Position numbers and translations under genes: made by a program. 64,000 bases of DNA, taken from contig JAFCMP010000091.1 of the NCBI GenBank assembly GCA_017506865.1, positions 124,001 to 188,000 on the forward strand. Direction: 5' to 3'. Below, one piece after another: positions 19,566 to 64,000 of this stretch. How positions within the stretch are numbered: the first letter of the stretch is position 1; each line of letters starts with the position of its first letter. Below the pieces are notes generated by a model. It had not been told where the DNA came from. It made no database searches and saw only the letters and a program-made list of their open reading frames with translations. The DNA is from Tribonema minus. Its lineage: Eukaryota > Sar > Xanthophyceae > Tribonematales > Tribonemataceae.

Positions 19566-19668
19566 ACATAACGTACTACGTAGTGTTGGAAATGGATTAC
19601 GTAAAAGCAGCATCGCAAAGGCGGGCAGGAAGAAGCAGGCCTGCAGACAACGGCGGGCATCACCCCAT

Positions 19669-43325: not shown

Positions 43326-45863
43326 CGCCTTGTACAGGTGTGTGGGGGGGGTGTTGCATGTATGCGCAGGCTCCGTTGCGGACAGCTTGGAGTGTCAGCA
43401 TAGCTCAGCTCAGCAGTAGTAGCTTGATCAAAGCAGTAGTAGCTTGATCAACCTGACCCGACTGCTGCTGCTGCAGAATCACAGGAGAATGGACCAGCCT
43501 TCAGTAAACATAAATGTTGTTCTATGTTGTTCACAACGATGGTACAGTACATACCCATTGCATGTCACTGCCGTCTCTGCAGGAAAGTGCCGGAAGGCAG
43601 ATAGCGTGCACGCGCGTCTCTGTCAAGCATCATGCGTCACGGCGCATCATTGGGCACACCAGGGTCAAGCGGGCTACCCGGCGCATCCTGCGGAGATACC
43701 TTCAACAAGGGCTAGATGCACACAATCCAGACGGAAAATCGCAGTATGGACATAGAGCCGCCTGCCGGTGCCCTTTTGCTCCAAGTGACGGGCTGGGTAC
43801 GACTATGTAAAGCATCACCTAGTAGGTCGATGTACCATTACGGTGTACCAGTATTACTGCGGCTCATGGTGGCGCGTCTACCTGCTGTGACGCACAGGCG
43901 CAGTCGCGGGCGGCGAAGACTGCAGCAGACCCCAGGCGATCAGAAGTTGCCTGAGGCCTTCGCCTTGAGTACCAACTGCATCGTCAAGCAGAATCATGAT
44001 TTCAGCCTGTTGAGTGCCTAGGCTGCAGCAGCCAGTTCTTAGCTCATGAAGGCATAGCTGGTGCGCATACGCTCAGCCCTCTCGGCAGCGCTCCACATTA
44101 CATTCTGTTTTACGAGTTATGACGCACATGGTGGGCTCCAAAGCCCTACTAGTAGGGGGGGCGAATGAACGAGCACTAGGATGTATCGGGGGAAGACGCT
44201 ACTGAAGTTGGCGGTGTGGTTTACAGTGATAGATGCCATCATGTCTAGACAGTTTCAGGTTGTCACCTCCTTGGTAGCTGCTCAGCTAAGGCTTAAGCTT
44301 GACACCCACCATCTGGGCTTTTCTGCACCCTAAGCATGACAAGTACATCATCAGACTTGTCATTGATTGTCATTGAGACACATTAGACAATGACGTGACA
44401 TGTAGATTTCGAACAGCAAGCTTACTGTTAGATACCAGCATCTTACTTTTAGAAAGAAGGCAGGAACTTACATATGCATGCGAACAGGACATCATTGCAA
44501 AAACTACCACTGGCAATCAACGCGTCTCGGGCTGCTGCCCACATGCATGATGATAACACAAACAGCACGCCAAGGCTCGCAGGGAGCCTGAGGAGGTCCT
44601 ACTGCAACCACGCAAACAGAACACCAACAAATATTCACAGGCTGTCATGAAATCAGGTCGGGTGAACACGCATCTCAAGTCAAAGCCTCCAGAATCCAGG
44701 TCAAGGCGTCGTCCAGGTTCGCACTGCATGTGCAGGGCCTGCTGATCCCCTCACATATACTTCGGAGTACACCTAAGCCATAGCGCAAGGGTACACCAGT
44801 TGCTGCGGCAGTGGTGCACAGATTCAATGCCACACCACTCCAGGTGGTGCGCTGCACTTGATGCGTGAATAGGACTGGCTAATAGTAATTGCCGACAATG
44901 GACCGCATGGCATATCTCAGGCTGTTGCCGCTGGTGCGATGGGTGCCCAGATGTTGACATTCATGCAATGCTGGTTCCACTCATACGCCAGAACCGCTCC
45001 TTTCTAGCACTGCTCACGCTGGGCGCCTCTTCCTGCGGTAATCCGTGCGGTCACCGCCACGGCGGAACTCGTCGCTGCCCGCCACTGGAGGAGAGCCGAT
45101 GCCCGGCATTGCTGCTGAAGACTCAGGTGTTGCTTCGCTTGTTGCTCCGCTTGGCTTGCATGCTGCAGAGACATGCACGAGTACCAGCAGGAACAGAGCT
45201 CATGTTGGTGTGCAGTGTTACACAATGTGACCCCCAACAAGCAAGTGGCACACGCTTGCCATTAAGATGGCAAGCATGTCAAATCACCACATGTCATGTG
45301 CATCAAACTTCAACGCGCCAGAGAAGCAGCACGTGCTGTAACATGCTGCAGTACTTAGTACTGATGTCAATGCTCTACCTCAGCTTTGCTTGTCACTGTG
45401 CGCCCAGGTGTTGTCGATACAACGCAGCTCGGTACCTGTACGACACTTGTGTTTGTGAGGCGACCCTAGGGTTAGAGGGGGCTATTTAGTCATTTTCTGC
45501 CACTGTGACACTGGCTTCATGCCATATTCTTGGCCCAGATGCTTCTGAATCATGCTAAATCATTAGACAAGTTCACTTGGACAGTTTTGCAATGGTCTCG
45601 GACACATGTGTGCACGACAGCATGGACAGCATAGCATGGCATGTTGCATGCACCAGTGTGTGCAGCCTGCAGCATGCACGCCACGCCCTGAGCACATTCA
45701 CGCAGCATGCCACAAAATCGATGCCATAAGAAGTGTGCACACCTGTTGGCAGAGGGTAAGAAATGAACAAATGCCAGCCAAAATGCACTGTGCTGGATGC
45801 AATTGTTTAAGTACACTGTGCTGATTGCAATTGTCTGTGGGCTCATGACATGGCTCTTTCATG
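43326..45863. other. no gene recognised; region downstream of the PAP gene
   Basis: Contains a 20-base tandem duplication (GCAGTAGTAGCTTGATCAA at 43413 and 43433) and only short frames. On the minus strand a TGTAA word, the usual green-algal polyadenylation signal, lies at 45218-45222, about 640 bases after the PAP stop; it is the nearest one noticed, and weak evidence. Confidence 0.45.
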
Positions 45864-46095
45864 TCACAACACACCTGCTGGTACGGTAATCAGCTGCGCA
45901 CTGCTGACTGGCTCTGTCACACTCTCAGCAGAACCAGCGGCGACCGCGAGTCCCTGTTCGGGCGTAGTGCTTCCTTCCTGTTGCTTGCCAGCTTGTGCAG
46001 AAACGACATCATCAGCGAGCAGTACGGCGCATTCGGTAAACTTTTTCGGCGTGGAGGCTTTGTCATGGAGGGTTGCCCCCCCCCCCCCCCCCCTC
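45864..46095 (-). CDS. PAP: PAP terminal exon (start uncertain)
   Basis: An open stretch from about 46100 to TGA at 45864-45866. Encodes [20 protein letters not shown], then Gln/Glu/Ser-rich sequence with [12 protein letters not shown], similar in style to the tail exons. A CAG acceptor at 46096-46098 precedes a run of 18 G and leaves the frame one base out of phase with Z1; a different acceptor, or an error in the homopolymer length, would account for this. Confidence 0.5.
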
Positions 46096-49000
46096 CTGAC
46101 TCACTAGCATCGGGCTTTGTGATGAGCTCAGCTGAAAGGTCTGCAGTGGGCCTCTGCAGACCCCGTTAACTAAGCATAGGTTCAGGGCTCAAGGTTGGGT
46201 TGCAAGTACATCCTTCAACTTAAATACTTCGAAGCATATACGAATGGCAACAGGCTACATCAACAAATGCATGAATGTACATGCTCCAAATTTGTAAAAA
46301 TTACAGTTTTCCGCACCTCAGTAAATGGTTCCGCCGTTGGCTTGGCGGGAGGCTCAGATGCGGGCTCATCAGTCGACTCTGTGGTCGGCTTTGCGGTGGG
46401 CTCAGCAGCAGGCTCTGCAGTTGCCTTGGCAGTGAGTTCTGAGGCAGACTCAGCTGTTGGCTCTGACGCCGGCTTGGCGGTGGGCTGCATACAAAGGGGG
46501 GCAAGGGGGGGGGGGGGGGGGGGGGGGTTGAGGGCTGAACTTGAAGCTGTCAAGTGTAGCTCAGGCGAGCTTCAGACATAATAAGCAACTTCAAAATGTT
46601 GTCTTGGTGCGTAGAGAACCCCGGTCTGCAAAACCGTTGCTGCACTGCGGGTCCGTCCAGGGTGGGGCAGGCAAAGATCACCTGAATACAAGATTTTTGT
46701 CGTATAACAACAGGTGCAGTCAACGAGGATCTCATTGTGCCGCCTGTGGGCAAGATGCTGGCGCTCGCGAAGCGTGGCGTGCAGGCGTTTTAGTGATCGC
46801 ACGCATGTACATGCATACGTCAGATGTGAAAATAATACTAATGTACTTGAACGGCGACGTGTGAGGTGAGTGTCATGCGCAGGGTGCAGGTTGCTCCCTC
46901 ATGATGCTATCATGCTGCTGAGTTGCGTCAACGTCTTAAGCAAGGCACCCGAGTTGCGTCAACGTCTCAAGCAAGGCACGCAGTTAATGTTTGACATCTA
47001 CAATAGCTCGAGCATGTCTCAACATGGCGCTCATCGGCATTGCATTCAAGTCGGCTATCAGGAGAGCTTACGAAACAGCAAGTGACTCACTAGATGGGCT
47101 GAACCTACAGAGCAAGCGCATGATTCTTCGGGTGCTTGAGGCGCCCACAGCAGCTTGGTGAGTGGGACATGCGCATTGCAACCCTATATTCGACAAAGAC
47201 ACCGACACAAAGCGGAAATGCGCACACCGTGGCATTATGCCTGGTGTGCCGCGTTCAACCTACGCCGCCTTTGCACCTACCAGTCAACTTCAACTCACCT
47301 TTGAAGTAGGCTCAGCAGTGGGCTTGGCGGTGGGCTCAGGAGTCGGCTCAGCAGTTGGCTCTGAAGTCGGTTTGGCGGTGGGCTCAGCTGTGGGCTCCGC
47401 AGTTGGCTCTGACGCTGGCTGCGTCAGGCGGGCAATCCAAGTGTTGCATTGTGTTAATGGTGTGCAATGCAGTCCCACATACTGAAGTACATGAGAGCCG
47501 ATCATGAGCGTTGATTGGTCATGGCCAATCATTAGTGTGCCTCTCATGTGGAGAGCAGAGCTATACAACACACGAACACTATACTTAGTAATACGACTGT
47601 GCCTGGTGATTGGTACTTTGATGAAGTATGAGCACTAGTGCACAACGCTTACTTTGGCATGTGCCTATCAATTGCAACATGCGCGCACAATGCAAGCTTG
47701 CATCATGTCAGTGCCCTGCACGCACACCTCAAGTGAGTGTCAGGCTCGGGGTAATTTGTACTGCGCTTGCACGCCAGCCTCAGACATTGCACCTACTACT
47801 GCTGTGCACTGCAGACATGGTCACTGCTGCTCAATACATACTCAAGGCTGCCAGCACCATGCAGTCTGATGCGGCCCTTTAAGCCACCTACCGGTACCTA
47901 CCTCAGCAGCTGACTCTATGGTGGGCTTGTCGGTGGGCTCAGCAGTGGGCTCAGCGGTAGGCTCCGCAGTTGGCTTGGCCGTGAGGTCTGAGGTAGGCTC
48001 AGTCGTTGGCTCTGGCGTTGGCTTGACGGTTGACTGCATACAAGGAGGGGGGGGCGTGGAATTGAATTGAAACTGCCAAGTGTAGCTTAGGCTAGCTTTA
48101 ATCTTAGTAAGCAACTTCAAATTGTTGTCTTGGAGTGCGGAACACCCCGGCCTGCAGAACCAATGGTGCACTGCGGGTCCGTCCATAATGGAGCCCAAAA
48201 ATTCACGTGAAAACGTGGTTTTCGTCGTACAACAACAGGTGCGGTCAACGAGGGTCTCATTGTGCCGCCTGCGGACACTATGCTGGCGCTCGCAGGGCGT
48301 GGCGCGTAGGCCTTTCAGTGATCGCACGCATGCATATTTATACTTCAGATGTGCAAATAGTACTACTGCGCTTGCACGGCGATGTGTGAGGCGCATGTCA
48401 TGTGATGTGGAGGTTTTCGGAGGTGGTGATTCCATCATGCTGCTGAGTTGCGTCGATGTTCCATTCAAGGCAGCCACTTGGCCCTTTGGGCCACCTACAG
48501 GCACCTACCTCAGCAGATGACTCTGCGGAGGGCTTGTCGGTGGGCTCAGCAGTGGGCTCAGCGGTAGGCTCCACAGTTGGCATGGCGGTGGGTTCTGAGT
48601 CAGGCTCAGCCGCCTGCTCTGACGTCGGCTTGGCAGTGGGCTGCGCGAGGCAAGCAACGCATGTAATGCATTGTGACGATTAAGTGAAATGCAGCAATAT
48701 GCTCCACATGTTCATTGCCGCCGTAGGCTTCTCATAATCTTGCCGATTTCATACATGTGTCCGTTCATGTGAACCCCACTAGCTAGCAATACTGCGCATC
48801 AGATCCGCAATCGCAAATGTGGGTCGTTAAGACATACTCCCTGTTGTCATGTCAATGCCCTTCGCACACACCCAACGTGGGTGTCAGGTTTGGGGTAAGG
48901 CGTACTCCGCTTGCACGCCAGCCTCAGACATTGCACCTACTACTGCTGCGCACTGCTGTCATGGTCACTGCTGCGCAATACAAACCCAAGGCTGCTAGTA

Positions 49001-52000
49001 CCATGCAGTCTGATGCGGCCCTTTGCGCCACCTACCGGCACCTACCTCAGCAGTTGGCTCTGCGGTGGGCTTGTCGGTGGGCTCAGCAGTGGACTCAGCG
49101 GTAGGCTCCGTAGTTGGCTTGGCGGAGGATTGTGAGTTAGGCTCAGCCTCAGCCGTCGGCTCTGAAGTCTGCTTGGCAGAGGGCTGCGCGATGCACTCAG
49201 CGGTGGACTGCGCAGGCGGCATGTCGGCAAGCTTGGCAGAGGGCTCTGACGCTGCGGCAGGTGGCTTGCCCCCAGGCGCCTCAGTGCACTCAGCCACCGC
49301 CTCTGCAGGTGATCCAGCAGTTGACGAGGTAGTGGACTCGCCGCCAAACCGTGCTGCCGGCACAGCCGTTGAGTCCGTGATGGCACTGTCTCTAGGCTGC
49401 AAAACGAAGTCAACGCGGTGAACACCGTGAGCATGTTGCAAACTTCAGCTGGGTGCATCATCATGACACTGTGAATCGTATGAGGCCAGCTCGGGTAAGT
49501 GGCACATGTTTGCCCAGCACTTCATCACATGGTGCACGCCTGCAATTGCCTTCTGCTGAGGTTTCTACATCGTGCACCATAGCTGCGATAAGAGATGCAG
49601 CTAAAGGGGAGGGAGGGAACCACAGGTGTCCAGATGAGCAATGAGCCTGACTACATGCGTAATTTGCAACAGAACATCAATGGCGCAACAGGTGACATGA
49701 GATGATCAGAATGCTAAGAAGGCTTATGATGTAGCCGGGCTTCGTGGTCATGTTGTTGCAATGATGTGGTGTGAAATCGGCCATGTTAGTAAGGCTTGAG
49801 ACGCGATACTTCAGCACAAAGTTCCGACAACAACAAGAGTTTACTGAAATGTGCTGCTCTGCCTGAGCTGATTCTGGTGCAATGCAACTGGCGCTACCAG
49901 CGTTGCACAGTATGGATTTGCATAAGCAGGTAATGCCATGCCGCTGCCAGCTTGTGTACATGACGCTCTCATGAAGTTATCTTGTGGCTTATAGCTCATA
50001 AGCCACATAGCTCAAAAACAGGCTTTTGTCAAAGGAAATGCTTCAGGTACTGTCATGGAGAGTGTCTGCTCCACGCCTGACATCTGCAGTGTAATGAAAT
50101 GTGTACAGTGTACTGACAGGGGGTTTAATGTGTGTAGTTGCTTACTGCACATACACCAATGAGGCTTTCTGTGGGAACTGCGCCCATATGCTGTCCATAC
50201 AGCCCATCTCGGTGCCTGTACAATACTTGCACGAGTTTAGAGGCTAGTATTTGTACTGATGTAAATATCCAGTTGTTGTATTGACAACACCGGCGTGCAC
50301 AAAACGCTGACACAAGCAGGCAAACCATGTTGCTATGATCACGCTCACAACAGCGTGTGCCCCCGCTTACTACTCCTCGCTTTGAGCACTGCTTCAACTG
50401 CCATGAAGTCTGAGCACCCATGCACCACAGCGCTCAGCTCACCTCAAGGGCGGGAGCCTTCTCCTTTGTACTGGCTGCATCGCTTTGATCGTCATTTAGA
50501 ACCTCCACTGCAGCCTCTGTCGCTCCTGCCGTCAAGTCGGCCTCAGCTGATGCAGCCACCTCTGATGTCCCCTCAGCTGCCTTGCCAGCCTCGTTGGTTG
50601 GCTCTGCAGATGGCTTAGCGCCCCCAGTGTCCATCTTCCGCTTCTTGGGCAACGCCTGAAGAGAAACGACAGGTATGGAATAAGCCATGGGTCAAGTGCC
50701 AGTCACGTGGTCATTGAAGTAACATTGCTGTGGGCAGTGTCAAATCATAAAGAGCAGTCATGAGCTAGCAGTGTTGAGCCATCAGCACACATCAGTGGGT
50801 AGCTGTGCTGCGTGGTTCGTTGATGCCAACGGCAGCACCAGTGTGATACAACGACCAAGCGCCACCCGCAAGTCTCCTGACGCCTGCATCAAGTGCGTGC
50901 CAGACGCACAGGTGCTTGTACACTGCTGAGGAGCACAGCTTTCTGACAATTAAGACATGGTCTGCTGTCAGCAGCTTTGTCATGAGATGCCATACTGCCT
51001 TGAACTTCAACCAATACCTGGTCATCATGATCGCCAGCTTCGCTGTGGTCGCTGTCGTAGTGTGAAGCTCCGTCAGCAGCAGCAGCCCCCATGCTGCCGC
51101 TCCGCACCCTGAGATGCAAGAGTGGTGGACTTCGTCATGCCCCCGCCATCCTTTGGGATAAGGGCGCTGTCAGTTCCAGTGGCGTTGGAGACTGCAAGCT
51201 CCTGCTGCGGCGGAGGCGTTGGGGCATGGGACTCCTGTACGGCAAGCATATGCAAACAAAGTTGCATTCATCTTTGTGCATGTCAAGAGCACTGGCACCT
51301 AATGTAAATGTTGCTGGTGACCATGGACGCTGCGCCCATGACCGCAAGCGGTGACACAATGCAGGTCGAGTCATGAGTTGTTGAGTTTTTCACATGATGG
51401 CAAACGTGCGCGATGACTAATTAAATGGTGCAACAAACTGGTATCGGGTGAGCTGTGCAAGCGATTGCAACATTTGTGATCATGCAGTTTAAAACTGAGA
51501 CTACCGAGAAGGAGAAAGCTTGGGGGAGTATACCAGCATGGATATTGCTCTGCCTGAGCTAATTTGCCCAGTGACACTGCGATAGGCGCACCACAAGCAG
51601 TTTAGAGTACAGTTTTAAATAAGCGGGCATCTCCATGGACCAATGCATGCCGCTCCTTTCTCCCATGACGTCACGTGCTGTTCGCCGATAACATGCTTCA
51701 AGTACTCTGGTGTCGCATAGCCTCAACTTGACATTGAGAGTGTAGTGGTATTCTGTCAGCACCTGACTCTTCTCTGCAGGTGCTTTATGACCGCAGATAC
51801 CATTGTGGCGCACAAGCGACGCCTCTTGCAAATTATGCAGCCCTCAGCCAACAGCTCCTGGACCACTGCTCGCGTCAAACATTTCTTTAACGCATTTTGA
51901 GAACTTCTATAGCTGTTGCCAAGGTCAGCATAGTAATACACACACGCAACACAGAGCTCAGCTCACCTTGGATGAAGCCTTCTCCTCGGTGCAGGCTTCA

Positions 52001-55000
52001 GTGATGGTACTGTCGCCGGGCGTCTCCACTGCAGCCTCGGGCAGCCCTGCTTTTGAATTGACTTGTGCCACTGGAGCCGCTGCTGCTGGCCCTTGCGTCA
52101 CGTCATCAGCCTCGCCGAATGGCTTGGCAGATGTTGTGCTCGTCTTCTGCTTCTTGTACGACGCCTGATTGATGAACAATACACACCAGTCAAATGCATG
52201 TCAGGTGTCAATCAGCCGCTTCAATCACGTGGTTTATGCCGGCAGCGTCAGTACAACAATTGCTGCTATGAGCGGGCAGCGTCAGCAATCAACATTGGCA
52301 GCAGTGGTGTGTGATGCGCAATTGTCAATGGCAGCACCGGTGTGAGATCGCTGATGTGGGTCGCTTGGCTGAGTGGAGCCACAGTGACTTGTAAGCATCT
52401 TACAGGCGATGCTGCCTTCGTCGCTGCCTGTCGCAATAGGAAGGCGAGTCAAGTTGTACTCATAGATCAATATCCAGCTGTGCTCAAAGCAATTAATGTC
52501 ACAGGTGCACAGGAATTGCGGGTTGAGCACTGTGACAGTGGACACACAGCACACAGAGGCCATGACAAGACCTGCTGCCCTGTGCCAGTAATGTCAGGTC
52601 CCATGCTGCTGCTGTATGCAACAGTAGCAGCCTGCTGAAGGGCTGTGCTTGCACTGGTTGCTTGCCGTGCACTAATTCCTGGTGATGCAAGTGACGTTGT
52701 CGCGCAGTTGAAACTGCTGCAGCCGCAGAGAAGCACAGTACCGCATGCGACTTTCCGTTCACGCCAAGATGTGCAGCGCAAAAGTGGCTGCAAAGAACAG
52801 GTTAGAGATCTAGCTTCAGAGCTAGTCAGGGTTTGAAGCTGGGGGGGCGTGTGCTTGCTATTCAAGGGCCCCGTGCAAACATGATGACTTATGCTGCATT
52901 GGGTTCACAATTCCGAACCATAATACAGGATCAGCAAACTCGGCAAACATCACTTCATGATGAGGTGATCAGCAGCTGGCCAACACCACCAGCGTTGCCT
53001 GGCACAAGCTCTGCACGTCTGTAGCTGCCATTGTGCTAGCTCGCTTAGGCGCCGCAGACCAAAGAGCCAACCCTAACCCTATTACAAAATGCCACGCCTG
53101 CCTCACGTGTACCACCAGCCGCTACACATGCCATCAGTGCTCGCAATTGGCAAAAGTACCTTAGCGCTGCCTCCATTGGCATCATCGTCGCCTGCACTGC
53201 CGCCGGTGGCAGGCCCAAACTGCCTCTTCGCATGCTCAATTGCTGGAGTCTGGGCGTCGGGTGCGGGCGTGGCACGGGATATCGTGGTGGCAGCGACGCT
53301 GGCATCGTACACCCCAGGCTCGGCGGGCAGGGACGGCACAGTGTGGGAGACCTGGCACGGTCAACACAGTGTCACGAAAAAGGGTCGCGTCAGGATTAGA
53401 ATTGAGGTGATTGAGGTGCACTGGTAGAGGCGGCAATCGCAACATCAGTGCGTGTGCCGCAAGGGGGGGGGGGGGAGACTGCGTCAAGCACGTGCCGAGA
53501 GCTGCGACAGGTGATCTTGACATCAGGTGTGGTGACAAGCACACAGACTGAGTGTGGCAAGAATGTGCGCCAGAATATGACCTACAAATCACCGTAACCA
53601 ACAGACCTCGTACTGCACACTGCAGTCACGCTGATCTTGTACTGAGGGACACATGTGATGGTACATGAACGTCATGCATCAAGCGCTACACAGCGTTTGC
53701 TGAGCGTCGCAATGCGCATCCCTGGGGAATCGGCACATCAACGTGTATCACGGCGACCTTATTGATACATTTGTTCAAATGCCACATCTAGTTCGACGAG
53801 ACTTCAAGGTCGCCTGCAAAGGCTGGGCGGCACCCACAGCTCAAGCCCTGCGCATCAGTACGCACTTTTTTGCTAGTTTGCTCAGGCTCGCATCATGATG
53901 TACTTGCCGTTATTTGTAGTCACCAAATGCTATGCCTACCATCTAGCCTGCTACACAGTCATCTAGCCTGCTACACACGCCATCCGTGCTCGCGATCAAA
54001 AAGGTACCTGAGCGCTGCGTTCTTCATTCGCATCGTCGCTTGCGCTGCCGATGGTAGCAGACCCAGGCTGCCCCTCTTCGCTTGCAGATCCCAGAGTCTG
54101 GGCTTCGGCCATAGGTAAGGCATCGGCCGGCGCAGTGGCAGCGACACCAGCATCATGCGCTGCAGTCTCGGTCCGCAGGGGCGCCGCAGCGTGGGGGACC
54201 TGGCATGGGCAACACGCATGCAGGAAGTGTTTGATTGGTGCGGCATCATTGGCAGCGGCGCCTCTGTGTGGTGACAGTCAGAGTCAGAATTGAGGTCTTC
54301 CTGGGTGCCTGTCATTGCGCTCAAGACAGTCAACATCAGAGACTGTGCGGCAAAGGGAGCTGGGAGTGTGCAGAGCGTGTGCAGAGCGCTGCAACAGGTG
54401 CAGTCAACAAGCGGTAGGATTGCGGGCGGCAAAATCAACGAGTGTGTGCAGGCATGCAGTTCTTGCAAGATACCTCAAGTAAGCTGGCCTTCCCAAATTG
54501 ATGGTCACCCTCCCTTTCTACTGCACACCGCATTTGTCGGACAGTGTCCTTAAATTCAAACAAGACGGTAAGTGTTGCTGGTGACCATGGATGCTGCGCC
54601 CATGATTGCAAGCGGTGACACGATGCACTGCCAGGTAGAGTCATGACTTGTTGAGCTTCACACATGGCAATCGCGCTGGATAAGCAAGTAATGCGTTGGA
54701 GTGACGCAGGAACGCCATCCGCGTAAACGTCGAATTTGTAGCCACAAGCGCCGAGTACACGAAGCGCTGCCACTGCGCGTACAATAGAAAGGCGCGTGCG
54801 CAAGGGTGCGTTGCACAAAACGCGCGGGCCCTCTGCTGCTGAATGGCAGACGGATGAGGACCTATCTGCAAGGCACACTCGCAGAATAATTGATGCACAT
54901 TTGGTGCGGTTGACAGATGCAGATGTTGCTGCACACGCGTCGCGTCCGAGCCAGAGCGTCCTTGAACGTGCGCTGTGTAGTGTGTAGCACTTTCCTGATG

Positions 55001-58000
55001 CGTCAAAGGTGCCCATCACAACGTGCAATGGTGCAACAAACTGGTGTCGTGTGGGCTGTGCAAGCAATTGCAAAATATGTTATCACTCGCTCATAATCAC
55101 GACCATCAAAAGGAGAAAGCTTGGAGGAGTGTATAAGCCTGGATGTGAGTGGCTTGCTCTGCCTGAGCTAGTGTGCCCAATGACACTGCAAGCAGCGCAC
55201 CACAAATAGGTCAGGAAATAATATTGTATGAGCGGGCATCCCCATGGACCATGCATGCCGTTCATGCACTGCTCCCATGACGTCATTGCTGGTCGCCGAT
55301 AACAGGCTCTGTCATCATAAATGCTTCAAGTGTCCACATATCGCATAGCCTGCGGTGTACTGGCATTCTGTCGGCATCTGACTTGTGTCTACAAGTGCTT
55401 CATGACAGCAGATACCGCTGTGGCACACAAGCGACGCCTCTTGCACATGATGCAGCCCTCACCTAACAGCTCATCAAATGGATGACACTGTAATTGACAA
55501 TGCTGACTGCAGCGCATGTACAATGCAGGGCTTGAGCTCACCTGAAGCTTGGCGTCGAAACCCACAGACTCCGTCCTCGGCTTCTTGTGAGGAGAAGCCT
55601 GACAGACGCACAACGCACATGGCAGACGTGGCAATGATGTTAACAAATCATGTCGTGAGCAGCACGCATGAGCACCAGCAATATTGTGCAGTGGAAGGGC
55701 AGGAAGTCCTATCATGTGCAGTCGCGAAACGCTATGCGCCTGCCATCTGAGTAGCCTGCCACAAATGCCATCAGTCTCGCGATGAACAAGGTACCTGAGT
55801 GCTGCCGTCCTCAATGACATCGGCACCGCGGCCGCCTGCCTTGTTTATGGTGGCGGGCCCAGGCTGCACCTCTGCGCGTGCAGGTCCTGGAGCCTGGGTG
55901 TCGGGTGTGGGCGCAGCCTGGGCCAGCGCAGTGGCAGCAATACCAGCGTCATGCACTGCCAGCTCGCTCCGCAGGGGCGCCGCAGCGTCGGACACCTGAT
56001 ATAATGGGCAACACGCATGCGAGAAGTGTTTGATTGGTGCGGCATCATTGGCAGAGGCGCATCTGTGAGGTGACAGTTAGAGTCGGAATTGAAATGCTTA
56101 ATGGATGCCTGGCAGTGCGCTCAAGATTCTCAATGTCAGAGACTGCACAGGGAGGCTGGAGCGTGCGGAGGGTGTGCTGACCGCTGCAACAGGTGCAGTC
56201 AACAAGCGGTAGGATTGCGGGCGGCGAAAACCAACCAGTGTGTGCAGGCATGAAGTCCTTACAAGATACCTCAAGTACTTCAAGAAGTATTTGAAGTACA
56301 CCGCCAGTGGCGCCATTGCTGCTGTCATTGCCAATGCCCCCACTGGCACCATTGGCGCGGACATGTCAGCCGTTACCGTTCGGTCGCGGCAACCGTCACT
56401 GCCGTGATAGAAACCACCGTATCGCTCAGAACCGCCATCTTTACAACCATTGTTGATGCTATCAACGCCATGGAGGTGAAGTCATTTGGCACGTCAGATC
56501 TGCTCGACACTGTGTGTCTCAGCGATACATTTATTGCCATCAGCCACGCAACTTCATTTCAACCTGATTTTGGAACGTGTGTGCAGCAGCAGAAACACGG
56601 CTGCCCAGCTGTTTAACAATGTTTGCCGTTGATTGCGGCACCGGCACCGAAACTTACAGTCTTACGAGATGTGCTCTGTTTCACGGCACGAAATACGGCA
56701 CGAAAATGCGTGTGACTTCACGACACTTTGAGATCGCAACAACCCTAGGCAGCGCTCATCAAGCAATCCAGTACCTATACCTTATAAGCGCTGTTCCTCT
56801 CTGCAGGCGGAACGAACTATTGCGCAGAACATATGGCTTTGAGAGGTACCTCCATCTCCAAGTCATCGGCGGCGTTGCCTGCAGCTGTAGTGCTGGCAGC
56901 AGCTGGCTCCTCCACAAGCATAAGGGTGGCGGCGGGGGCGGCAGCGGCGCCACTGGTACTACCTCGCTCCGCCGTCACCTGGTGGTATGCGGCAACGATG
57001 GCGGCGGCGATGGCTGCTGGGTCTGTCACCTTTGCAGCAGGTCCATCAAGCTGCAGTCGGCAAAGAATCTAACAGAGAGCAGCAGTGAGACTCAGTCTTA
57101 GCCGTTGCTGGTGTGTTCGAGAAAAGCAACGACACAACACATCCATTGTCAGCATGTTCAGCATGTTGCATACGGGAAATCTGACACGTGGTCCAAGTAG
57201 TCAGTGTGGCTGGTCTGACTGGATCATTGGCCGAACCTGCTCTGTCAGCACAATCCTTGGCCCAACACAAACGTTGCCAAGATTTGGCCTGCAGCTAGGC
57301 ATGCAGCACTACAAATGTGCCCCATGGCAATTGCATGCTTGTGTGCATGTCCGTGAGCGTGGCTTTCCTACCCTGTGGTGACTCTGACTCTGCGATTGAG
57401 CTGACAGGCTTGTGAAGCCAGGGACAACACAATCTAAGCGTGGAAGGTGCAAGTTGGTCTTGGGGTTGAATAACTTCATGTTTATCATATGCTGCTATCA
57501 CATAGTACGCATTATTCTTAGGTTTCCACACTTTAGGTCTTTATATCCACAACGATACAGTTGTTGCTTTTGGTCAACCTGAAAAACAAATCTTAGTAGA
57601 ACCTAGTTTTTAGGGAATGAGAAACAGTTAAAGATATGCAATTATTGAAGCAGACGTTGATAGAGAATTATTGCAAAAATCCAAGCACTGAAAAGAAAAC
57701 AATAACTATCATAACAATCTCGTTTTGGACCACTTGCTGGAACTTCAAATTTTATAGACGAATAATAGTCTACACCACATTAACTAAATACTTGTCCCTT
57801 CGTTCCTTGCCATTTATTTTTGTTTCAAATTAAAGTTTTTTAAAAATAATAGAATCAACTGAATTAAAATAGAAAAGCGACCTAAAATCAAAAATTATCA
57901 CTTTTATAATCGGAAGTGTAATTATTACGTGAGTTTAGTCCTCAACATTTAGATTTTGAGAATTATATCAACTCTTTTGGTATATATATATTTTACATAT

Positions 58001-61000
58001 ATCTTGAGGTGTTAAAGTTCTTACAAGTATATGAAGGAATATCAAAATCTATTTTTTATTATGATTTTTATTATGATTTTAACTCTTCTATTTTTATTAT
58101 AATTTTAACTCTTCCCACTTCACCTAATAATAAAAATTGTGCCAGTACTTGATGTTGGATTCGTACCTGCGTGCTCATCAGTATGTGCGCGTAGCACGGC
58201 GTGTGCCTTGCTCGTTATGAAAACAAGCACATGGCAGCACTCTCTGCTTGCGTGTGACGTCTGGTTGGAATTTGCTACAACATCATAAATCACCATACTC
58301 CAGACTGGGTCATTTGCGGCTTTTTGAGCCAACGCTAGCGCTTCATGATTGCATATGTTGCAGCACATAGTGTCTACTACACCGTTTGCTCATTGAGGCA
58401 AACAGCAACGTTAACGAAATTGTTTTGTCAAGCGGTCAGCGCTCACAACTCACAAGCAAATGGGCGTGAACGCCCACGCGAACTGTTTTGCACCGTGAAG
58501 TAGAGTGTTGTGCAGACTGCACGCGTGTAATGACTACACCTCCAAATGTCAGAAATGGCAGCAGCGATAGCGGTGAAAGTAGCTGTTAGAGGTACGTACC
58601 TCCATCTCCATGGCCTCGACGCCACCGCCTGCAGCGGCAATGCCGGCACCACCTGGCAGCTCCACTGCCATAGGGCGGGCGTCGGGCATGGCAGCACCAC
58701 TATTTGCTCGCCTCGCGATCATCTGACGGTAAGCGGCGTCGATGGCGGCGGTAAAGGTTGCTGGCTCGATCTCCATCGCCGCAGGTCCGTCATGCTGCAG
58801 TCGGTAACGGGAAGCAGCAGTGAGCATAGCGCATTGCGTGGTGATTTGGGAAAGCAGCAGCACGGCACCTCTATCGTCAGCAGGTTCAGCATACAGGAAA
58901 TCTGACACATGCCAGTGGTTTGAATTGTCAGCATGTCTGGGTTGACGGAACCAACAGCCACGCCTGCTTTGACGGCACAATCCTTGGCTCAGCACCACGG
59001 AGTCTTGCCAGGATTTGGTCTGCAACTGGGAATGCGGTAGTGGACTGCATGCGGCCCAGGGCAGTTGCACGCATTGTATGTATGGCCCGAGCATCACTCC
59101 CATACCCTGTGAAGACTCTGGCTTGGCCACCGAGCTCAAAGGCTGGTAAAGCCAAGCGACAACCAGGCGTGAAGTGTTGCCTGAGGTTGACCATGATGAT
59201 GTCAAGATGATTAATGCCACTGTCACACGGCATGCATTACATGTGGCCGCAATTGCCTTACAGCAGGCATGCTATGTTCAACCTGCAGAATGCATGCGCA
59301 TGCATTCAAGCACTTGGCCTTAGTATCTACACGTGCGCACTCATCAATGTGTATGCGTTGCACGGAGGCATCAACCAGCTGCCTTGCTCGATGTGATGAG
59401 AAAAACAAATTGCACTCTCTGTGCAATTGATGTGTTGCTGAAATTTGCAACTGCATTATACATCAACATGCTCCAGACTCCTATGTCTGTCATTTGCGGC
59501 GCATCTGATAGACCGCCAGCACTTTATATTTGCCCATATTATCAATTGTTCTGTCTACTACACCTTTGCTTGTGGCAAACAGAGAGTGACAAGTGTGTCA
59601 CAAACTCACTAGCAAATGGGGATGAACGCCTCACGTGAACTTTTTGCAGGTTGACATTGCAGCACAATATTGCACAGATGAGACATACGTAGTGACTCCA
59701 CCTTGGCAATATCAGTGGTGGCGGCCTCAACAGCAGTAACAACAGCTTTTAGAGGTACCTCTGTATCCATGTTGTCGACGCCATCCCCTGCAGCAGCAAT
59801 GCCGCCACCACCTGGCAGCTCTGCTGCCATAGGGGGGACGGCGGGGGCGGCAGCGCCACTCTCTGCTTCCTCCACCGCCATCCCATGGTCAGCCGCGATG
59901 GCGGCGGCGGCGATGGCTGCTGCCTCCATCTCCATTGCAGCAGATTCATCATGCTGCAGTTGGTGAAGAATACAGAAAGGGAGCGTCACTGCTTGCTCAC
60001 CCGGCACACCTATTGCCAGCATAGTTCCAGCATACAGGAAATCTAAAACATGATTCAATGTGTACGCTTCTCTGACTGGACTTGCAGCCGCACCTGCTTT
60101 GACGGCACGATCCTTGGCTCAGCACATCGATTCTTTTGCCAAATTTTGGCCTGCAACTGGGAATGCGGTACGGGACTGCATGCCACCCAGGGCAGTTGCA
60201 TGAATTGCGTGCATGTCCCTGAGTGAGGCTGCTGATCCCTGTGATGACTCTGGCCTTGCCACTGACCTGAAGGGCTTGTGCAGCTGGAGACTCCGCAGTC
60301 TACAAGTGATGTGTTGGTCGGAGGTTGAATGGTCTTGACGATGCTCAACTACCACTGCCGCCGCACACTATGCATCCCTGTTTATTTTTCAACTGCGTCA
60401 CAAGGGTCGTGCCATGTCCTGTCCTCAGAATGCGTGTACATGCATTTGCAGTACTCGACTCTCAATATACTTGCGTACTAGTATAGCGGGTGCACGCACT
60501 GGGCGGATGTACCTGTGTTGCTCAATATGATAAGCGGCACAAAGCGGCACTTCTGGCTTTCGTGTTGTGACGTCTTGCTGAGATTGGTATGGCCATGTAC
60601 CAGTCCTTAAGCCAGGCGTGTACGAGAAGCGCTGCTGGTCAGATAAGGGTCTCGCCGGTTGCAATTGTTGTGGCGTTGTTAGTCAGTGAACAAGGTGTTA
60701 CACAACATGGCACACCATATGGAGGCGCTGACCCGAAACGCTAACTAACATGCGCTTCTGCGCCCATCCTTCTTTGACTGTAGGCGCAGTCGCTCACATC
60801 CTCACAGCTTTGCTACTTCAAATGTGAACATTAATGCACGCTGTCGCTCCCAGTTGCCTGCGCTCACCTGCGGAGCCGCGGCAGGGGCGTTGGCAGCGGC
60901 GGCAGCGGGCGGATTGTAGGCGTCGTCCACTGCGCGCGGAATGTGCTCGTAGATGAAGGCCGGCAGCTCGTCGCAACGGCGGTACCACAGCCGCAGGTCC

Positions 61001-63777
61001 ATAGTGGGTGTGCGACGTTCCCACAGGTTCAACTGGGGGACAGGGGAGCGCGGCGCGCGCGGCGTGATAGCATGAGCGCCTACACGCCAGAAGCGCAGAC
61101 GCGCGGTTCAGCGCGCAGCCTGCGTACATGTCGACAGCCCGGTACCCGTGATGATGTGACGCACACATGCCTGGCGGATGTGCGGATGACTTGGTCTGTA
61201 ATGGAACGATCAAGTTCTGCACAGCAATCATGTTGCAGAAGGGTCTGGACAAAGCTGCGCCGCAGCGCGCAATGCCACGATTGCCTGAAAGTCAAACTGC
61301 GGACAGTGGCTTCAGCTGCGCGTGTGTGACCATGCTCATGAGGGCACTGGAGACGCAGTGTACTTAAGTGGAGGCCGCGCATGCCACCCATTCTTGAGGT
61401 ACGCCAGGAATGCCGTGACAGGGGGCATTCGTGATAAGAGCGTCAAGAACATTGGCACGGACAACCGCAGTATGCACATGTCTCAGAGGCTGTGGCTTCT
61501 ATGTTGTCATCCAAAATTTCCTTCGTCCGTGAGTTCGCTGAAACAGCGCTCACATGCAGCGCGGCATCTATGTCAACGCAGAAGGCTTAGGGTGTTTCAA
61601 AACCATTCAAGCGATATGGCTCGCAGTGCAGCATCGCTAGCACCCAAACGTATGTGCACTCTTGCGGGGCTATGGCACATACTTGGGCACTGACGCCACC
61701 GGCGACAGTTTTGCAAGCAAGGCGCGGTCAAAAGTGACCGCACAAACTGACGCACCTCGTAAACAAAGTCTCGCGTAGCCGCTGTAAGGTCAACGTTGCC
61801 GGCAGGGGCAGCTGGCACAGTTTGACAAGCACACAAACGTCATCGCAGGGGTGAGGGCTTGCACCGCTTAGGCCGCGAGCGCAACACGGGCAGCATGGGG
61901 TTATTGTCATGAACAGGTGCCGCACATGATTGGTGGCGTGTGGAAGTGCTGGATGCGGCACAGGTGGTCCACGTAACTATCATCGCATGGCGATTGCAGT
62001 GTAGAGCAGGATGGTGCATTCACGCCAGTCAGGGCCATTTTAGGGGTTCAGAACAGCCTCACACACGACATTTGCCCCCCCTTCAAACATGAGCCGCCGC
62101 TGTCACTACAAATCTGCCCGCAGCAAGCACCAAGCCGCGCACGGTAAAGCTGTTGCTGGACTCATATGGGATGAGCTCATTGCAAGAAGTGCCCAACGAC
62201 AATGGCTGTTGCACGGCTACGGCAGCCTGTGCTGCCTCGGAGCAGCGCTGACCCACTGTGGTGGTCCGACGGCATACAGGCGCAGGTTCATCAGTACTCA
62301 GCAGGTCTGGCAACAGCAAGTCGCGTTCTGGCGTTGCTGCATTCGTCGGCTTGAGAACACTCAGAAACGCAGGATGGGCCTGCAATTGGCAGCGGGCTCT
62401 CGACTCATGACTGCATTCAGCAAGGCAAGCTTGCGCGTGGCAGGCGACTCGGAAGTGTTGCCGCGCCTCTGTGAGGTGTGAGGCATGTGCAGCAACTCCT
62501 AGGGGGCTCAAACTGAGAGCGCCGTCCTCAAAGTCACAAACACGCAGCACACAAACGCAGTAGTCATAGCAAGTGCCAGCTCACAAAAGGCTGGCGGCTG
62601 CCATCCAATCTGTCGTCGCACAGGGCAGCGCCATGTCAACCGCTCAGCAGCAGCAGCGCTCAGTGCTGAACGTGCTGGGACAAACATCGTGGAGGCCAGA
62701 CGCCGAGACAAAAATCGCGGATCACGCTTGACATGCGCGTGCACGTACACGCGCGCGCTCACGACATGCACGCTGGCATGGGAATGGCAACCCGCTGTAC
62801 GCTTTGCAGGCAGGCCACAACAAAACAAAGCCGCTGGTGTCTTTCGCGTACACCTTCTGGCGCGCTCACGCTCAGCACGCAAGCTCGCCGCCGTGTGCAC
62901 TCACTCACTTTTGATCGACAGCCCGATGAAGAAGCTCGTGCAAAGCTGCGGCGGTCCCGGGGCGTCGGCGACGCGCCGGGAGATGATGTTGGCGTACGGG
63001 TGAGCGAGCACAGGGGGGCGCTCAAGCGCGAGCGTCATGCGGCGCATGCGGCTCTCCACGAAGCCGAGCCAGCAGCGGTGGTCCTCAGGGTTGGCCAAAA
63101 GGACGTCCACCTTGACGGCAGTTTGAGGATGGGGAGAGGCGAGGGTAAGTAGGAAGAACGTGCCGTACCAGAGACACCAAGCCGGCAAGGCGTGCCATTC
63201 AAGGGCAGAATTGCGCGTTGTGGGTTGTCGCTTGCAAACACGTCCGCTGTGACGCAGTCCGTTGCAACGTTGGGCATTGATCGCCAATCCAAGTGCACGT
63301 GCTCTAATGATGAATCCTGCTTGATGGCGCACGGTTCCATACCTTGCCATGTCTGTTCACACCACGCATACTCTCTGCTTTGGCTCAGGCGTGAGGTTGC
63401 TCAGGCGCAAGCACTCTCCGCAGGAAGCGTGCGCCGATACCAGCAAGAACTGTTCAGAACATGTACTGAGCAGTGCTGCAGCGGTGCGGCGTGCACGACG
63501 CATCGCAACGCGCGCAGCAGTGTCAGCCGCTCTGCGGCGCATGCACACGCGCAGGAGCGCTGCTGCAGCTCACGCATGAGAGCTGCCGCCGCGATGCGCA
63601 GTGCGCGCACGCACCTGGATGTAGTGGAGGAAGCGGTAGAAGAAGTCGCTTTTCTCGAAGAACAGCCTCCAGTGGCCGTGCTGAGGCTGATCGTCCAAGA
63701 GTTCCGTCACCTCCAATCCGCGCGCAAACTCCTCTTTCAGCAGCCTGTCCATGCACACAGAGGGGTTGGGGTGGTAT
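45864..63777 (-). CDS. PAP: nuclear poly(A) polymerase, 3' part, with long exon-repeat tail
   Basis: Multi-exon minus-strand gene; the 5' exons with the nucleotidyltransferase catalytic core lie beyond the right edge. Exons A-D encode the RNA-binding C-terminal half of canonical poly(A) polymerase, which adds poly(A) tails to nuclear pre-mRNA after cleavage: a helix [14 protein letters not shown], the [16 protein letters not shown] join matching the family's YLQVDI, and [18 protein letters not shown] matching its W-x-G-W-V-E-S-R signature. After exon D the gene continues into a Ser/Thr/Pro/Ala-rich tail built of repeated exons (V, X, Y, T, Q, Z types) ending at TGA 45864-45866. Almost all joins are phase 0, so exons can be gained or skipped without a frame change. 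Plant PAPs also have long tails with nuclear localisation signals; Y exons carry similar Lys clusters. PAP identity is firm. That all tail exons belong to one transcript is inferred. Confidence 0.78.
46076..46093. repeat. C18 homopolymer (G18 on the gene strand)
   Basis: At the predicted start of the last PAP exon. Its length decides the reading frame of the terminal exon if it is exonic. Confidence 0.85.
46317..46484 (-). CDS. PAP: PAP tail exon Z1 (PT-repeat)
   Basis: 168 bases, phase 0-0. Acceptor TATGCAG|CCC preceded by an extreme C-tract (23 C on the minus strand), donor [29 protein letters not shown], then [15 protein letters not shown], ending EPFTE. Confidence 0.68.
46505..46527. repeat. 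G23 homopolymer (C23 on the gene strand)
   Basis: Uninterrupted G-run on the plus strand, about 20 bases upstream of the Z1 acceptor on the gene strand, where the polypyrimidine tract belongs. The length is prone to sequencing error. Confidence 0.85.
46560..46870. repeat. duplicated intron a (before Z1), partner 48083-48390
   Basis: Shares long blocks with 48083-48390 (GCACTGCGGGTCCGTCCA, TCATTGTGCCGCCTG, AGTGATCGCACGCATG). In gene order one copy precedes Z1, the other Z3. Confidence 0.85.
47299..47418 (-). CDS. PAP: PAP tail exon Z2 (PT-repeat)
   Basis: 120 bases, phase 0-0. Acceptor ACGCAG|CCA, donor AAG|GTGAGT, a textbook site. [20 protein letters not shown], then [11 protein letters not shown], ending TSK. 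Confidence 0.7.
47740..47901. repeat. duplicated intron b (after Z3), partner 48870-49045
   Basis: Nearly identical to 48870-49045, including GCACGCCAGCCTCAGACATT and ACCATGCAGTCTGATGCGG, right up to the donor sites of Z3 and Z5. Introns a and b alternate between Z exons, so the duplicated unit held two exons. Confidence 0.85.
47902..48033 (-). CDS. PAP: PAP tail exon Z3 (PT-repeat)
   Basis: 132 bases, phase 0-0. Acceptor TATGCAG|TCA preceded by a C-rich tract, donor [29 protein letters not shown], then [15 protein letters not shown]. Confidence 0.7.
48509..48640 (-). CDS. PAP: PAP tail exon Z4 (PT-repeat)
   Basis: 132 bases, phase 0-0. Acceptor GCGCAG|CCC, donor GAG|GTAGGT. Encodes [20 protein letters not shown], then further EPTAEPT words to SSAE. 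Same length as Z3. Confidence 0.7.
49046..49396 (-). CDS. PAP: PAP tail exon Z5 (PT-repeat)
   Basis: 351 bases, phase 0-0. Acceptor TTTTGCAG|CCT, donor GAG|GTAGGT. Starts [19 protein letters not shown] and passes into Glu-Pro-Thr-Ala repeats ([20 protein letters not shown]). Largest Z exon. Confidence 0.7.
50443..50655 (-). CDS. PAP: PAP tail exon Y1 (PKKRK motif)
   Basis: 213 bases, phase 0-0. Acceptor CTCTTCAG|GCG, donor GAG|GTGAGC. Starts [25 protein letters not shown] is an SV40-type nuclear localisation signal. The rest is acidic and Ala-rich, ending KEKAPALE. The AEPT words foreshadow the Z exons. Confidence 0.7.
51018..51234 (-). CDS. PAP: PAP tail exon Q (borders uncertain)
   Basis: Acceptor GTACAG|GAG is strong. 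The first part reads [17 protein letters not shown] through [10 protein letters not shown] to about 51109. A second open part in another frame, [20 protein letters not shown], ends DHDDQ at a GTATTG donor after 51018. The whole is 217 bases, one more than a multiple of three, unlike its neighbours. Either a one-base indel in the copy or assembly, or an unrecognised splice within it (a GTGCGG donor lies at 51107), would explain this. Confidence 0.45.
51430..51710. repeat. duplicated intron segment, partner 55030-55320
   Basis: Matches 55030-55320 (GGAGAAAGCTTGG, TTGCTCTGCCTGAGCTA, AGCGGGCATC-CCATGGACCA, CCCATGACGTCA). It follows exon Y2 on the right-hand side of Q, as the partner lies between Y3 and T, giving a repeat step of about 3.6 kb. 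Confidence 0.8.
51967..52164 (-). CDS. PAP: PAP tail exon Y2 (Lys-rich)
   Basis: 198 bases, phase 0-0. Acceptor AATCAG|GCG, donor AAG|GTGAGC. Starts [19 protein letters not shown] and ends EEKASSK. The N-terminal Lys cluster parallels Y1 and Y3. Confidence 0.68.
53160..53351 (-). CDS. PAP: PAP tail exon X1
   Basis: 192 bases, phase 0-0. Acceptor TGCCAG|GTC, donor AAG|GTACTT. Encodes [20 protein letters not shown], then [19 protein letters not shown] and a [10 protein letters not shown] end. Same length as X2. Confidence 0.68.
53463..53475. repeat. G13 homopolymer in a PAP intron
   Basis: About 110 bases before the X1 acceptor in gene order, reading as C13 on the gene strand. Confidence 0.7.
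54008..54199 (-). CDS. PAP: PAP tail exon X2
   Basis: 192 bases, phase 0-0. Acceptor TGCCAG|GTC, donor CAG|GTACCT. Encodes [20 protein letters not shown], ending [11 protein letters not shown]; aligned with X3 and X1 throughout. Confidence 0.68.
54474..54548 (-). CDS. PAP: PAP tail exon T
   Basis: 75 bases, phase 0-0. Acceptor TTTAAG|GAC, donor GAG|GTATCT. Encodes [20 protein letters not shown], then ASLLE. The intron before it resembles the intron before exon Q, so T and Q may be counterparts. A similar GAG|GTATCT donor at 56270 lies in matching sequence, but no in-phase exon could be defined there. Confidence 0.45.
55542..55598 (-). CDS. PAP: PAP tail exon Y3 (Lys-rich)
   Basis: 57 bases, phase 0-0. 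Acceptor TGTCAG|GCT, donor CAG|GTGAGC. Encodes [19 protein letters not shown]. The HKKPR cluster aligns with the start of exons Y2 and Y1 and looks like part of a nuclear localisation signal. Shortest of the Y exons. Confidence 0.65.
55795..55995 (-). CDS. PAP: PAP tail exon X3
   Basis: 201 bases, phase 0-0. Acceptor ATATCAG|GTG, donor CAG|GTACCT. Encodes [20 protein letters not shown], then [20 protein letters not shown], ending EDGSTQ. First of three homologous X exons. Confidence 0.68.
56850..57050 (-). CDS. PAP: PAP tail exon V1
   Basis: 201 bases, phase 0-0 (CTGCAG|CTTGAT; GAG|GTACCT). Encodes [30 protein letters not shown] and an AADDLEME end. Two codons longer than V2 and V3, but clearly the same module. 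Confidence 0.68.
57230..57415. repeat. intron block before V1; homologues at 58960-59150 and 60093-60285
   Basis: Three blocks share ATCCTTGG, TTTGG-CTGCA, GGGCAGTTGCA-like and TGTGATGACTCTG-like words, and each lies 160-180 bases before a V exon in gene order. The step from the first to the second copy is about 1130 bases. The second step is about 1730, the excess being explained by the AT-rich insert at 57.5-58.1 kb. Confidence 0.82.
57491..57606 (+). pseudogene. psaB: plastid psaB fragment (nuclear insert of plastid DNA)
   Basis: The plus-strand reading contains [15 protein letters not shown] and PEKQILVEP, the conserved segment of photosystem I P700 apoprotein A2 (PsaB family; PEKQIL distinguishes it from PsaA). 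Just before it, AAI then a stop suggest decay of the usual AIISHLS stretch, including lost codons. Homology ends near 57606, followed by a stop. It lies antisense inside a PAP intron between V2 and V1. It is a non-functional fragment, not a plastid gene. Confidence 0.85.
57607..58135. other. AT-rich sequence, probably the rest of the organellar insert
   Basis: About 75-80 percent A+T, in sharp contrast to the flanks, with TTATTATGATTTT repeats at 58054-58100 and TATATATATA near 57982. Contiguous with the psaB fragment, so plastid origin is likely. No gene recognised in it. Confidence 0.65.
58600..58794 (-). CDS. PAP: PAP tail exon V2
   Basis: 195 bases, same length and borders as V3 (CTGCAG|CATGAC; GAG|GTACGT). 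Encodes [20 protein letters not shown], an [11 protein letters not shown] helix-like part and a VEAMEME end. The alignment with V3 is gap-poor. Confidence 0.68.
59759..59953 (-). CDS. PAP: PAP tail exon V3
   Basis: 195 bases, phase 0-0. Acceptor CTGCAG|CATGAT, donor GAG|GTACCT. Encodes [16 protein letters not shown], then an Ala/Gly/Pro-rich stretch and a VDNMDTE end. First of three homologous V exons. Confidence 0.68.
60868..61032 (-). CDS. PAP: PAP exon D
   Basis: 165 bases, phase 0-0. Acceptor CCCCCAG|TTG, donor [28 protein letters not shown] and DELPAFIYE match the PAP stretch with a W...MD-x-x-x-x-H-x-RR-x-x-LP-x-x-V pattern, the end of the conserved PAP body. It then turns Ala/Pro-rich, where the variable tail starts. 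Confidence 0.8.
61050..61755. other. intron between PAP exons C and D
   Basis: No further exon recognised; the phase fit of C to D (0-0) does not need one. Confidence 0.55.
61756..61811 (-). CDS. PAP: PAP exon C
   Basis: 56 bases. Acceptor TGCCAG|CT, donor GAG|GTGCGT. Its first two bases complete the phase-1 codon of exon B. Encodes [18 protein letters not shown], matching the PAP segment FDIR-T-VDEF-x-x-E. The exact phase fit across a 1.1-kb intron supports both borders. Confidence 0.8.
61812..62908. other. intron between PAP exons B and C
   Basis: 1.1 kb with only chance frames; exons B and C join in phase without an intermediate. Confidence 0.6.
62909..63110 (-). CDS. PAP: PAP exon B (RNA-binding domain)
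   Basis: 202 bases. Acceptor GTCAAG|GTG, donor A|GTGAGT. Begins [13 protein letters not shown], directly continuing exon A as in PAPs (YLQ-VDI), then [24 protein letters not shown] and FFIGLSIK, the conserved strand near the end of the domain. Ends in phase 1. Confidence 0.85.
63111..63614. other. intron between PAP exons A and B
   Basis: Contains only shadow frames. The A-B join reproduces the family's YLQ-VDI sequence exactly. Confidence 0.65.
63615..63777 (-). CDS. PAP: PAP exon A
   Basis: First PAP exon in the window. The AAG acceptor at 63778-63780 is tentative; the donor is CAG|GTGCGT after 63615. It encodes [17 protein letters not shown], then [18 protein letters not shown], matching the helix and FF-x-x-Y-x-x-YLQ of PAPs just before the RNA-binding domain. 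It ends in phase 0. Confidence 0.8.
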
Positions 63778-63948: not shown

Positions 63949-63980
63949 GGGGCGGGGGGGGGGGGAGGGGGGGGGGTGGT
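63949..63980. repeat. G-rich homopolymer tract near the right edge
   Basis: A G-run interrupted by one C and one A, within the intron upstream of PAP exon A. It reads as a long pyrimidine tract on the gene strand. Confidence 0.75.
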
Positions 63981-64000
63981 ATGCAGTATCCTCTGCCAGG

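Follow-up and report, generated by a model that had tools for sequence, protein, structure and literature searches.

An exon-amplified, mainly flexible candidate tail on a nuclear poly(A) polymerase gene of the alga Tribonema minus

Nuclear poly(A) polymerases (PAPs) of plants and animals (PAPS1/2/4 and PAPOLA) carry an RNA-binding domain (PF04926) followed by a low-complexity C-terminal extension. To our knowledge, these tails measure a few hundred residues at most and are not built from families of repeated exons. The 64-kb window analysed here, by which we mean the whole stretch of Tribonema minus DNA under study, contains a PAP gene on its minus strand that runs in from beyond base 64000 and has the same domain arrangement, and the locus raises the question of whether the long series of related exons behind the conserved domain encodes a protein tail and, if so, how such a tail could have grown. 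The reading that we favour, to which we assign a probability of roughly 60%, is that the window holds the 3' half of a canonical nuclear PAP gene with a mainly flexible tail of ~850-1,000 residues, that this tail grew by unequal duplication of exons together with their introns, and that its Y exons carry motifs resembling nuclear localisation signals.

We began with the identity of the enzyme. Exon A (63615..63743, minus strand, as for all exons below; LLKEEFARG...HYIQ) ends in phase 0, and its 5' border is provisional, the closest AG stopping one base upstream. Exon B (62909..63110, ending ...GLSIK) has a phase 1 donor and an acceptor that reads AAG rather than CAG, exon C (61756..61811) is phase-compatible with both B and D, and exon D (60868..61032) contains the end of the PAP body and the start of an Ala/Pro linker, with a phase 0 donor (GTGAGC) that allows it to join the first tail exon, V1, in frame. 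Joined together, A, B, C and D form a single open frame. The corresponding peptide, in which the exon junctions are provisional, matched the PAP RNA-binding family in Pfam (PAP_RNA-bind, PF04926; E = 1.1e-15, 58.3 bits against a cut-off of 24) as well as nine distinct poly(A) polymerase chains in the PDB (best 1.8e-9), with A and B both contributing to the two matches. This bears out the original prediction that A-D represent the end of a canonical nuclear PAP, an assignment that rests on the C-terminal domain because the catalytic domain falls outside the window, beyond base 64000.

Downstream of D, the gene order is V1, V2, V3, X1, Y1, X2, X3, Y2, W, Y3, Z5, Z4, Z3, Z2, Z1 and a terminal region, END. 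The V exons (V1, 59759..59953, 65 aa; V2, 58600..58794, 65 aa; V3, 56850..57050, 67 aa) and the X exons (X1, 55795..55995, 67 aa; X2, 54008..54199, 64 aa; X3, 53160..53351, 64 aa) were delimited by splice borders, a coding scan and a leave-one-family-out coding score, and the acceptor CTGCAG is common to V1, V2 and V3. For Y2 (51967..52164, 66 aa) and Y3 (50443..50655, 71 aa) a shared basic motif adds to these three lines of evidence, and the short Y1 (55542..55598, 57 nt, 19 aa) is weakly supported: it was reached by a model of Y2 and Y3 only at E = 0.046, and the intron downstream of it is duplicated with that of Y2. Z4 (48509..48640, 44 aa), Z3 (47902..48033, 44 aa), Z2 (47299..47418, 40 aa) and Z1 (46317..46484, 56 aa) encode PT-type repeats identified by borders, Pfam and coding scores; in the longer Z5 (49046..49396, 117 aa) the 3' part is of Z type and the 5' part contains degenerate Z-like stretches (Z profile, E = 5e-4 and 8e-4). 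All 14 V, X, Y and Z exons follow a CAG, precede a GT, are exact multiples of three in length and are phase 0-0, in agreement with the expectation for the well-bounded exons. The tail had been put at about 1,000 residues; the 14 exons encode 849, and a length near 1,000 is reached by adding W, END and a possible further exon, T.

The duplications extend beyond the exons, and the earlier suggestion that introns were copied too held throughout. Matches span exon and intron in the V1/V2 units (68% over 972 columns), X1/X2 (80% over 532), Z3/Z5 (87% over 300) and Z1/Z3 (76% over 572), and the introns 3' of Y1 and Y2 match at 75% over 456 columns. Further copies of the tail region were absent from the remainder of the 64-kb window at E ≤ 1e-6, and on this evidence from the window a mobile-element origin of the repeats was rejected; an assembly artefact was rejected on the divergence of the exon copies, which are 15.9-37.4% different under both gap costs. 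The introns flanking X1 and X2 (55714-56277 and 53912-54481) are 14% different compared with 25% for the exons between them. This higher exon divergence was significant (48/192 versus 50/356, p = 0.002). The V2-V3 intron contains an AT-rich stretch (57500-58160, 28% GC) that may resemble organelle DNA. The V2-V3 spacing (1744) exceeds that of V1-V2 (1159) by about the length of this stretch, which probably entered the intron once the V exons had already been duplicated.

The families of three V, three X, three Y and five Z exons were recovered as predicted, and the one assignment that changed was that of W (51018..51234), previously listed as a singleton. An nhmmer profile of X1-X3 gave one extra match, confined to 51268-51081 (E = 5.2e-5; next best 0.067). 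Pairwise scores of W against X1, X2 and X3 (37.5, 46.0 and 36.5) fell short of the highest among 200 shuffles (41.5, 47.5 and 41.0), and BLASTP of the peptides gave no alignment. In a global alignment with X, the gaps in W were all divisible by three (3, 6 and larger), apart from one single base beside a G run. The frame of W is disturbed: its 217 nt are not a multiple of three, its coding score is positive in one frame over the early part and in another over the later part, and in its first frame a stop lies just below 51076. W probably represents a fourth X exon that has either decayed or been sequenced incorrectly, in which case X and Y would form repeated units in the order X1-Y1, X2, X3-Y2 and W-Y3.

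To assess whether the tail exons are coding, we compared insertions and deletions between 10 non-overlapping pairs of copies under two gap costs (the pairs share copies, so that p-values are nominal, and Y1/Y2 contributed intron columns only). The copies have diverged at 25.0% of 1468 exon columns and 21.1% of 3125 intron columns. Gaps that are not multiples of three were nevertheless about tenfold rarer in exons (4 in 1468 columns) than in introns (85 in 3125 columns; p = 2e-10), and the difference persisted under the stricter costs (2/1474 versus 43/2767; p = 2e-6). The four frame-breaking exon gaps measure 2 and 2 (X2/X3) and 10 and 2 (Y2/Y3), and under the stricter costs only the two in X2/X3 are left. 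Seven of nine exon pairs lack such gaps altogether compared with one of 11 intron windows (190 columns each). Net length alone provides no evidence here, because intron windows have a net difference divisible by three in 6 of 11 cases, above one third.

Codon usage points in the same direction. When each family was left out of training in turn, the proposed frame beat the other five in 13 of the 14 exons, and its score was reached by none of 300 dinucleotide shuffles in 12 exons and by one in X2; for the 19 codons of Y1, 99 of 300 shuffles were equally good and another frame was slightly better. In frame, Glu and Lys codons favour a final G over A by 118:12, compared with 282:214 in the introns, and GC content is 64% in exons versus 50% in introns; these intron values include W and the AT-rich insert, without which they become 252:175 and 51%. 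In an open coding scan of the whole region the exons led, although some antisense segments lying on exons rivalled the weakest exons when these were left out (17.3, on Y3, versus 17.0 for V2; 18.1, 17.2 and 17.2 versus 16.7 for X2; 19.5 and 17.7 versus 17.5 for Y2; 21.1 versus 16.0 for D). Cys, Trp, Phe and Tyr together account for 13 of the 849 residues, with no Trp, compared with a neutral expectation of 25.8 at the intron rate, and a count this small arose in 3 of 4000 simulations. The frames were all open in 0 of 4000 neutral simulations, a figure inflated by the selection of exons as open, and another frame across the same exons has just eight stops in 835 codons; the stop simulations, and partly the gap test, are biased in favour of coding because the exons were picked as open and as multiples of three.

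We then turned to the 3' end of the gene, which had been placed at 45864. The END region (45864..46153) has a short Z-like start (46156-46111; Z profile, E = 0.01) and, past a run of 18 G, an open frame; its borders and frame are uncertain and no single reading of it is convincing. Long G runs are the sort of site that assemblies can get wrong, and the length of this one (C at 46076-46093 on the plus strand) sets the frame of END. Other C/G runs on the plus strand of the window lie at 46505-46527 (23), 53463-53475 (13) and 63954-63976 (12+10), and these long runs are likely places of assembly length error. A GTGTGT donor at 45875, within END, is phase-compatible with a CTGCAG acceptor before 45162, and the putative last exon so defined, T (45014..45162), has a weak coding score and would end in ...DRTDYRRKRRPA with a basic C-terminus and a stop at 45014. 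As far as can be judged from such signals, the gene may end near 45014 instead of 45864.

An earlier end is conceivable as well. The locus may make two overlapping products, in which the PAP ends past D by intronic polyadenylation and the tail belongs to an optional long isoform whose length is modulated by W. Vertebrate PAP genes are known to produce truncated forms by intronic polyadenylation. Reading through the D donor leads to a stop near 60804, and some 100 nt past that stop, at 60702, the minus strand carries TGTAA, the chlorophyte polyadenylation word, which makes such a short form possible. However, TGTAA is present at chance density (15 seen versus 15.7 expected), so that one within 100 nt is unremarkable, and the D donor is a good one. 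The behaviour of W fits this alternative: as sequenced, its inclusion would terminate translation early and splicing from Y2 to Y3 would preserve the frame. Altogether, we regard the two-product reading as unlikely but credible.

Splice variety is also possible among the other tail exons, since as far as their phases indicate skipping is frame-neutral for each of the 14, though not for W as sequenced. The 849 residues contain three K[KR]x[KR] motifs (KKPR in Y1, KKQK in Y2 and KKRK, within PKKRKMD, in Y3), one per Y exon at residues 4-8, where composition predicts ~0.16, although the three Y exons are relatives and do not count independently. We take these motifs to resemble monopartite nuclear localisation signals by their consensus. 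The C-terminal extension of plant PAPs has been linked to nuclear localisation, and plant PAPs without an extended C-terminal domain are reported to reside in the cytoplasm, with no nuclear localisation information predicted for them (PMC2778134). Since the Y exons carry such basic motifs, a likely role of the tail would be nuclear retention combined with generic tethering or spacing, as has been proposed for other PAP tails. A more elaborate possibility is a length-variable scaffold of interchangeable phase-0 exons and repeated localisation modules, in which exon count and the frame-breaking W tune the nuclear dose or recruitment of PAP and selection would be confined to frame and chemistry; we rate this as improbable.

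Composition changes sharply behind the PAP body. Ala, Pro, Thr, Glu, Ser and Gly make up 72% of the tail versus 38% of the body, the tally of Cys, Trp, Phe and Tyr in the body is 25 of 184 residues versus the low count in the tail, and the tail has a net charge of -82. This break is what would be expected if the V, X, Y and Z exons belonged to a gene of their own, encoding a disordered protein of repeats, with the PAP ending at or just after D, and in-frame ATGs in V1 as well as an ATG in W (reading MGAAAADG...) would provide it with starts. Nevertheless, V1 has the same acceptor as V2 and V3 and joins D in phase, the D-V1 interval is absent from the 26 best segments of each of five coding scans, and plant PAPs likewise have an extended C-terminal domain (PMC2778134). 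A separate gene is accordingly, in our estimate, distinctly improbable, and the favoured reading is that all exons would be joined in one mRNA to encode a long, acidic, Ala/Pro/Thr/Glu-rich flexible extension of the enzyme.

When searched against Pfam, the joined tail matched the PT disordered repeat (PF04886; E = 4e-31, 106.6 bits against a cut-off of 26.2) in six stretches, the best of them in Z. PF04886 is a family defined by composition, and membership does not imply common descent. No family besides PF04886 was found at E ≤ 10, which leaves V, X and Y as unfamiliar sequences. The charge-hydropathy score of the whole tail (-0.008) lies on the border between disordered and folded; single exons score towards disorder (Z1-Z5, Y1 and Y3), at zero (X2) or towards the folded state (V1-V3, X1, X3 and Y2). 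AlphaFold, given alignments of three sequences each, placed a single helix of modest confidence in every V or X unit and low-confidence coil after it (mean pLDDT 63 for V and 59 for X). Together, the folded-side scores of V1-V3, X1, X3 and Y2 and the helices predicted in V and X indicate that the description of the tail as disordered does not apply uniformly.

Regularly spaced helices could serve as stickers. Repeated V and X units of 64-67 residues with one predicted helix each would suit a functional sticker-and-spacer scaffold that concentrates 3'-end-processing factors and whose length is tuned by exon skipping, and algal pyrenoid linkers are likewise disordered, repeated and poorly conserved (PMC11570498). 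Over the three copies of each family, helix columns were somewhat more often invariant than others in X (8/22 versus 10/45, p = 0.25), but no better conserved in V (5/21 versus 13/46, p = 0.77), and the hydrophobic moments of all six V and X helices were unexceptional compared with shuffles. The helices are neither significantly conserved nor amphipathic, which makes specific binding helices less likely, and the models have modest mean confidence and three sequences each behind them. Conserved amphipathic binding stickers were accordingly not supported, and the scaffold is distinctly improbable in our view.

To examine constraint on individual residues, we compared the number of identical residues in 17 pairs of copies with 1000 neutral placements of the same substitutions. 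None of the seven V, X and Y pairs showed residue-level purifying selection (dN/dS 0.71-1.31). Among the Z pairs, dN/dS was 0.12-0.46 in 7 of 10, and Z1-Z2 (0/1000), Z2-Z4 (22/1000) and Z2-Z5 (35/1000) were the only pairs in which the number of identical residues surpassed that of almost every neutral placement. Z3-Z4 and Z3-Z5 gave dN/dS values near 1, and Z4-Z5 showed the reverse pattern (1000/1000), with 15 non-synonymous changes and one synonymous change (dN/dS of 5.8 on 16 differences). The lack of residue conservation in V, X and Y, together with an X1-X2 exon that changes faster than its introns, indicates that most of the tail keeps its frame and composition but not its sequence. A flexible extension defined by its chemistry would be expected to behave in this way, with frame and composition kept and sequence free. 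One disordered region has been described in which overall chemistry contributes to function alongside motifs (PMC12904797). The modular growth through symmetric exons that had been predicted finds good support in the sequence, with phase 0-0 in all 14 exons; the scaffold or regulatory role suggested along with it is not supported by the selection and helix results. A further reading is that the duplicated region does not code, or is the remnant of a tail now in decay, and that its open frames merely result from GC-rich repeats. The dN/dS values close to 1 for the V, X and Y families, the disturbed frame of W, the fast X1-X2 exon and the nearly open alternative frame would allow this. We nevertheless consider it very improbable, given the tenfold scarcity of frame-breaking gaps, the in-frame codon bias, the leave-one-family-out score and the depletion of Cys and aromatic residues.

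The closest process described to the growth of the PAP tail, by analogy, is that of the titin PEVK region, where composition-biased segments likewise multiplied through tandem duplication of exons and introns. The two sequences are unrelated, and PEVK is a spring with many isoforms, whereas the present tail belongs to an enzyme known from genomic sequence. For PEVK-C, exon duplication and length change are reported to outweigh selection on single exons (PMC6469411). The algal pyrenoid linkers EPYC1 and CsLinker resemble the tail in being repeated and disordered with short helices (PMC11570498), but these are Rubisco linkers without an enzyme domain, and the helices of the PAP tail show neither significant conservation nor amphipathic character. 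Chlamydomonas is reported to have a single PAP gene, whose introns do not sit where those of plant PAP genes do (PMC2778134). Among the matches listed from open-licence papers, covered by title and start of abstract, no PAP with exon amplification or a long algal tail was found. Searches of other collections yielded no match in Rfam at the gathering threshold, no plasmid match by megablast, and 4 and 110 pattern matches in viral and prokaryote contigs, respectively, none of which was confirmed; an alga is not expected in either.

The window also contains retroelements. A 2044-codon open frame at 776-6907 (minus strand) encodes reverse transcriptase, RNase H and C-5 cytosine DNA methylase domains, and retrotransposons with such methylases have been reported from dinoflagellates and charophytes (PMC5890265). 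A short distance downstream of the PAP gene, an Integrase zinc-binding domain (40315-41817, plus strand; E = 5e-13) marks a portion of a second retroelement, and a 998-codon open frame at 13947-16940 (minus strand) has a weak reverse-transcriptase match below the Pfam cut-off. A tandem array of a 182-base unit, with ~11.6 copies, occupies 17373-19574.

Algal proteins commonly carry long extensions of low complexity, and the route by which this one may have arisen can be outlined. Unequal recombination between similar introns would have multiplied exon units, giving three V units, four X-Y units (one without Y) and five Z units; gain or loss of such a unit would be tolerated because phase-0 introns flank each of the 14 well-bounded ones. 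Selection would then keep the tail open and its frame intact and hold down its content of Cys and aromatic residues, with the order of residues hardly constrained, and a longer disordered tail may be harmless or may be useful through its generic properties. The locus thus offers a natural case in which constraints can be separated: that on frame is strong, that on composition is present, and that on residue order is undetectable in V, X and Y. If transcripts confirm the gene structure, the locus would show how symmetric exons allow an essential enzyme to multiply its tail, and would make it testable whether such tails are useful, in localisation, recruitment or condensates, or merely tolerated.
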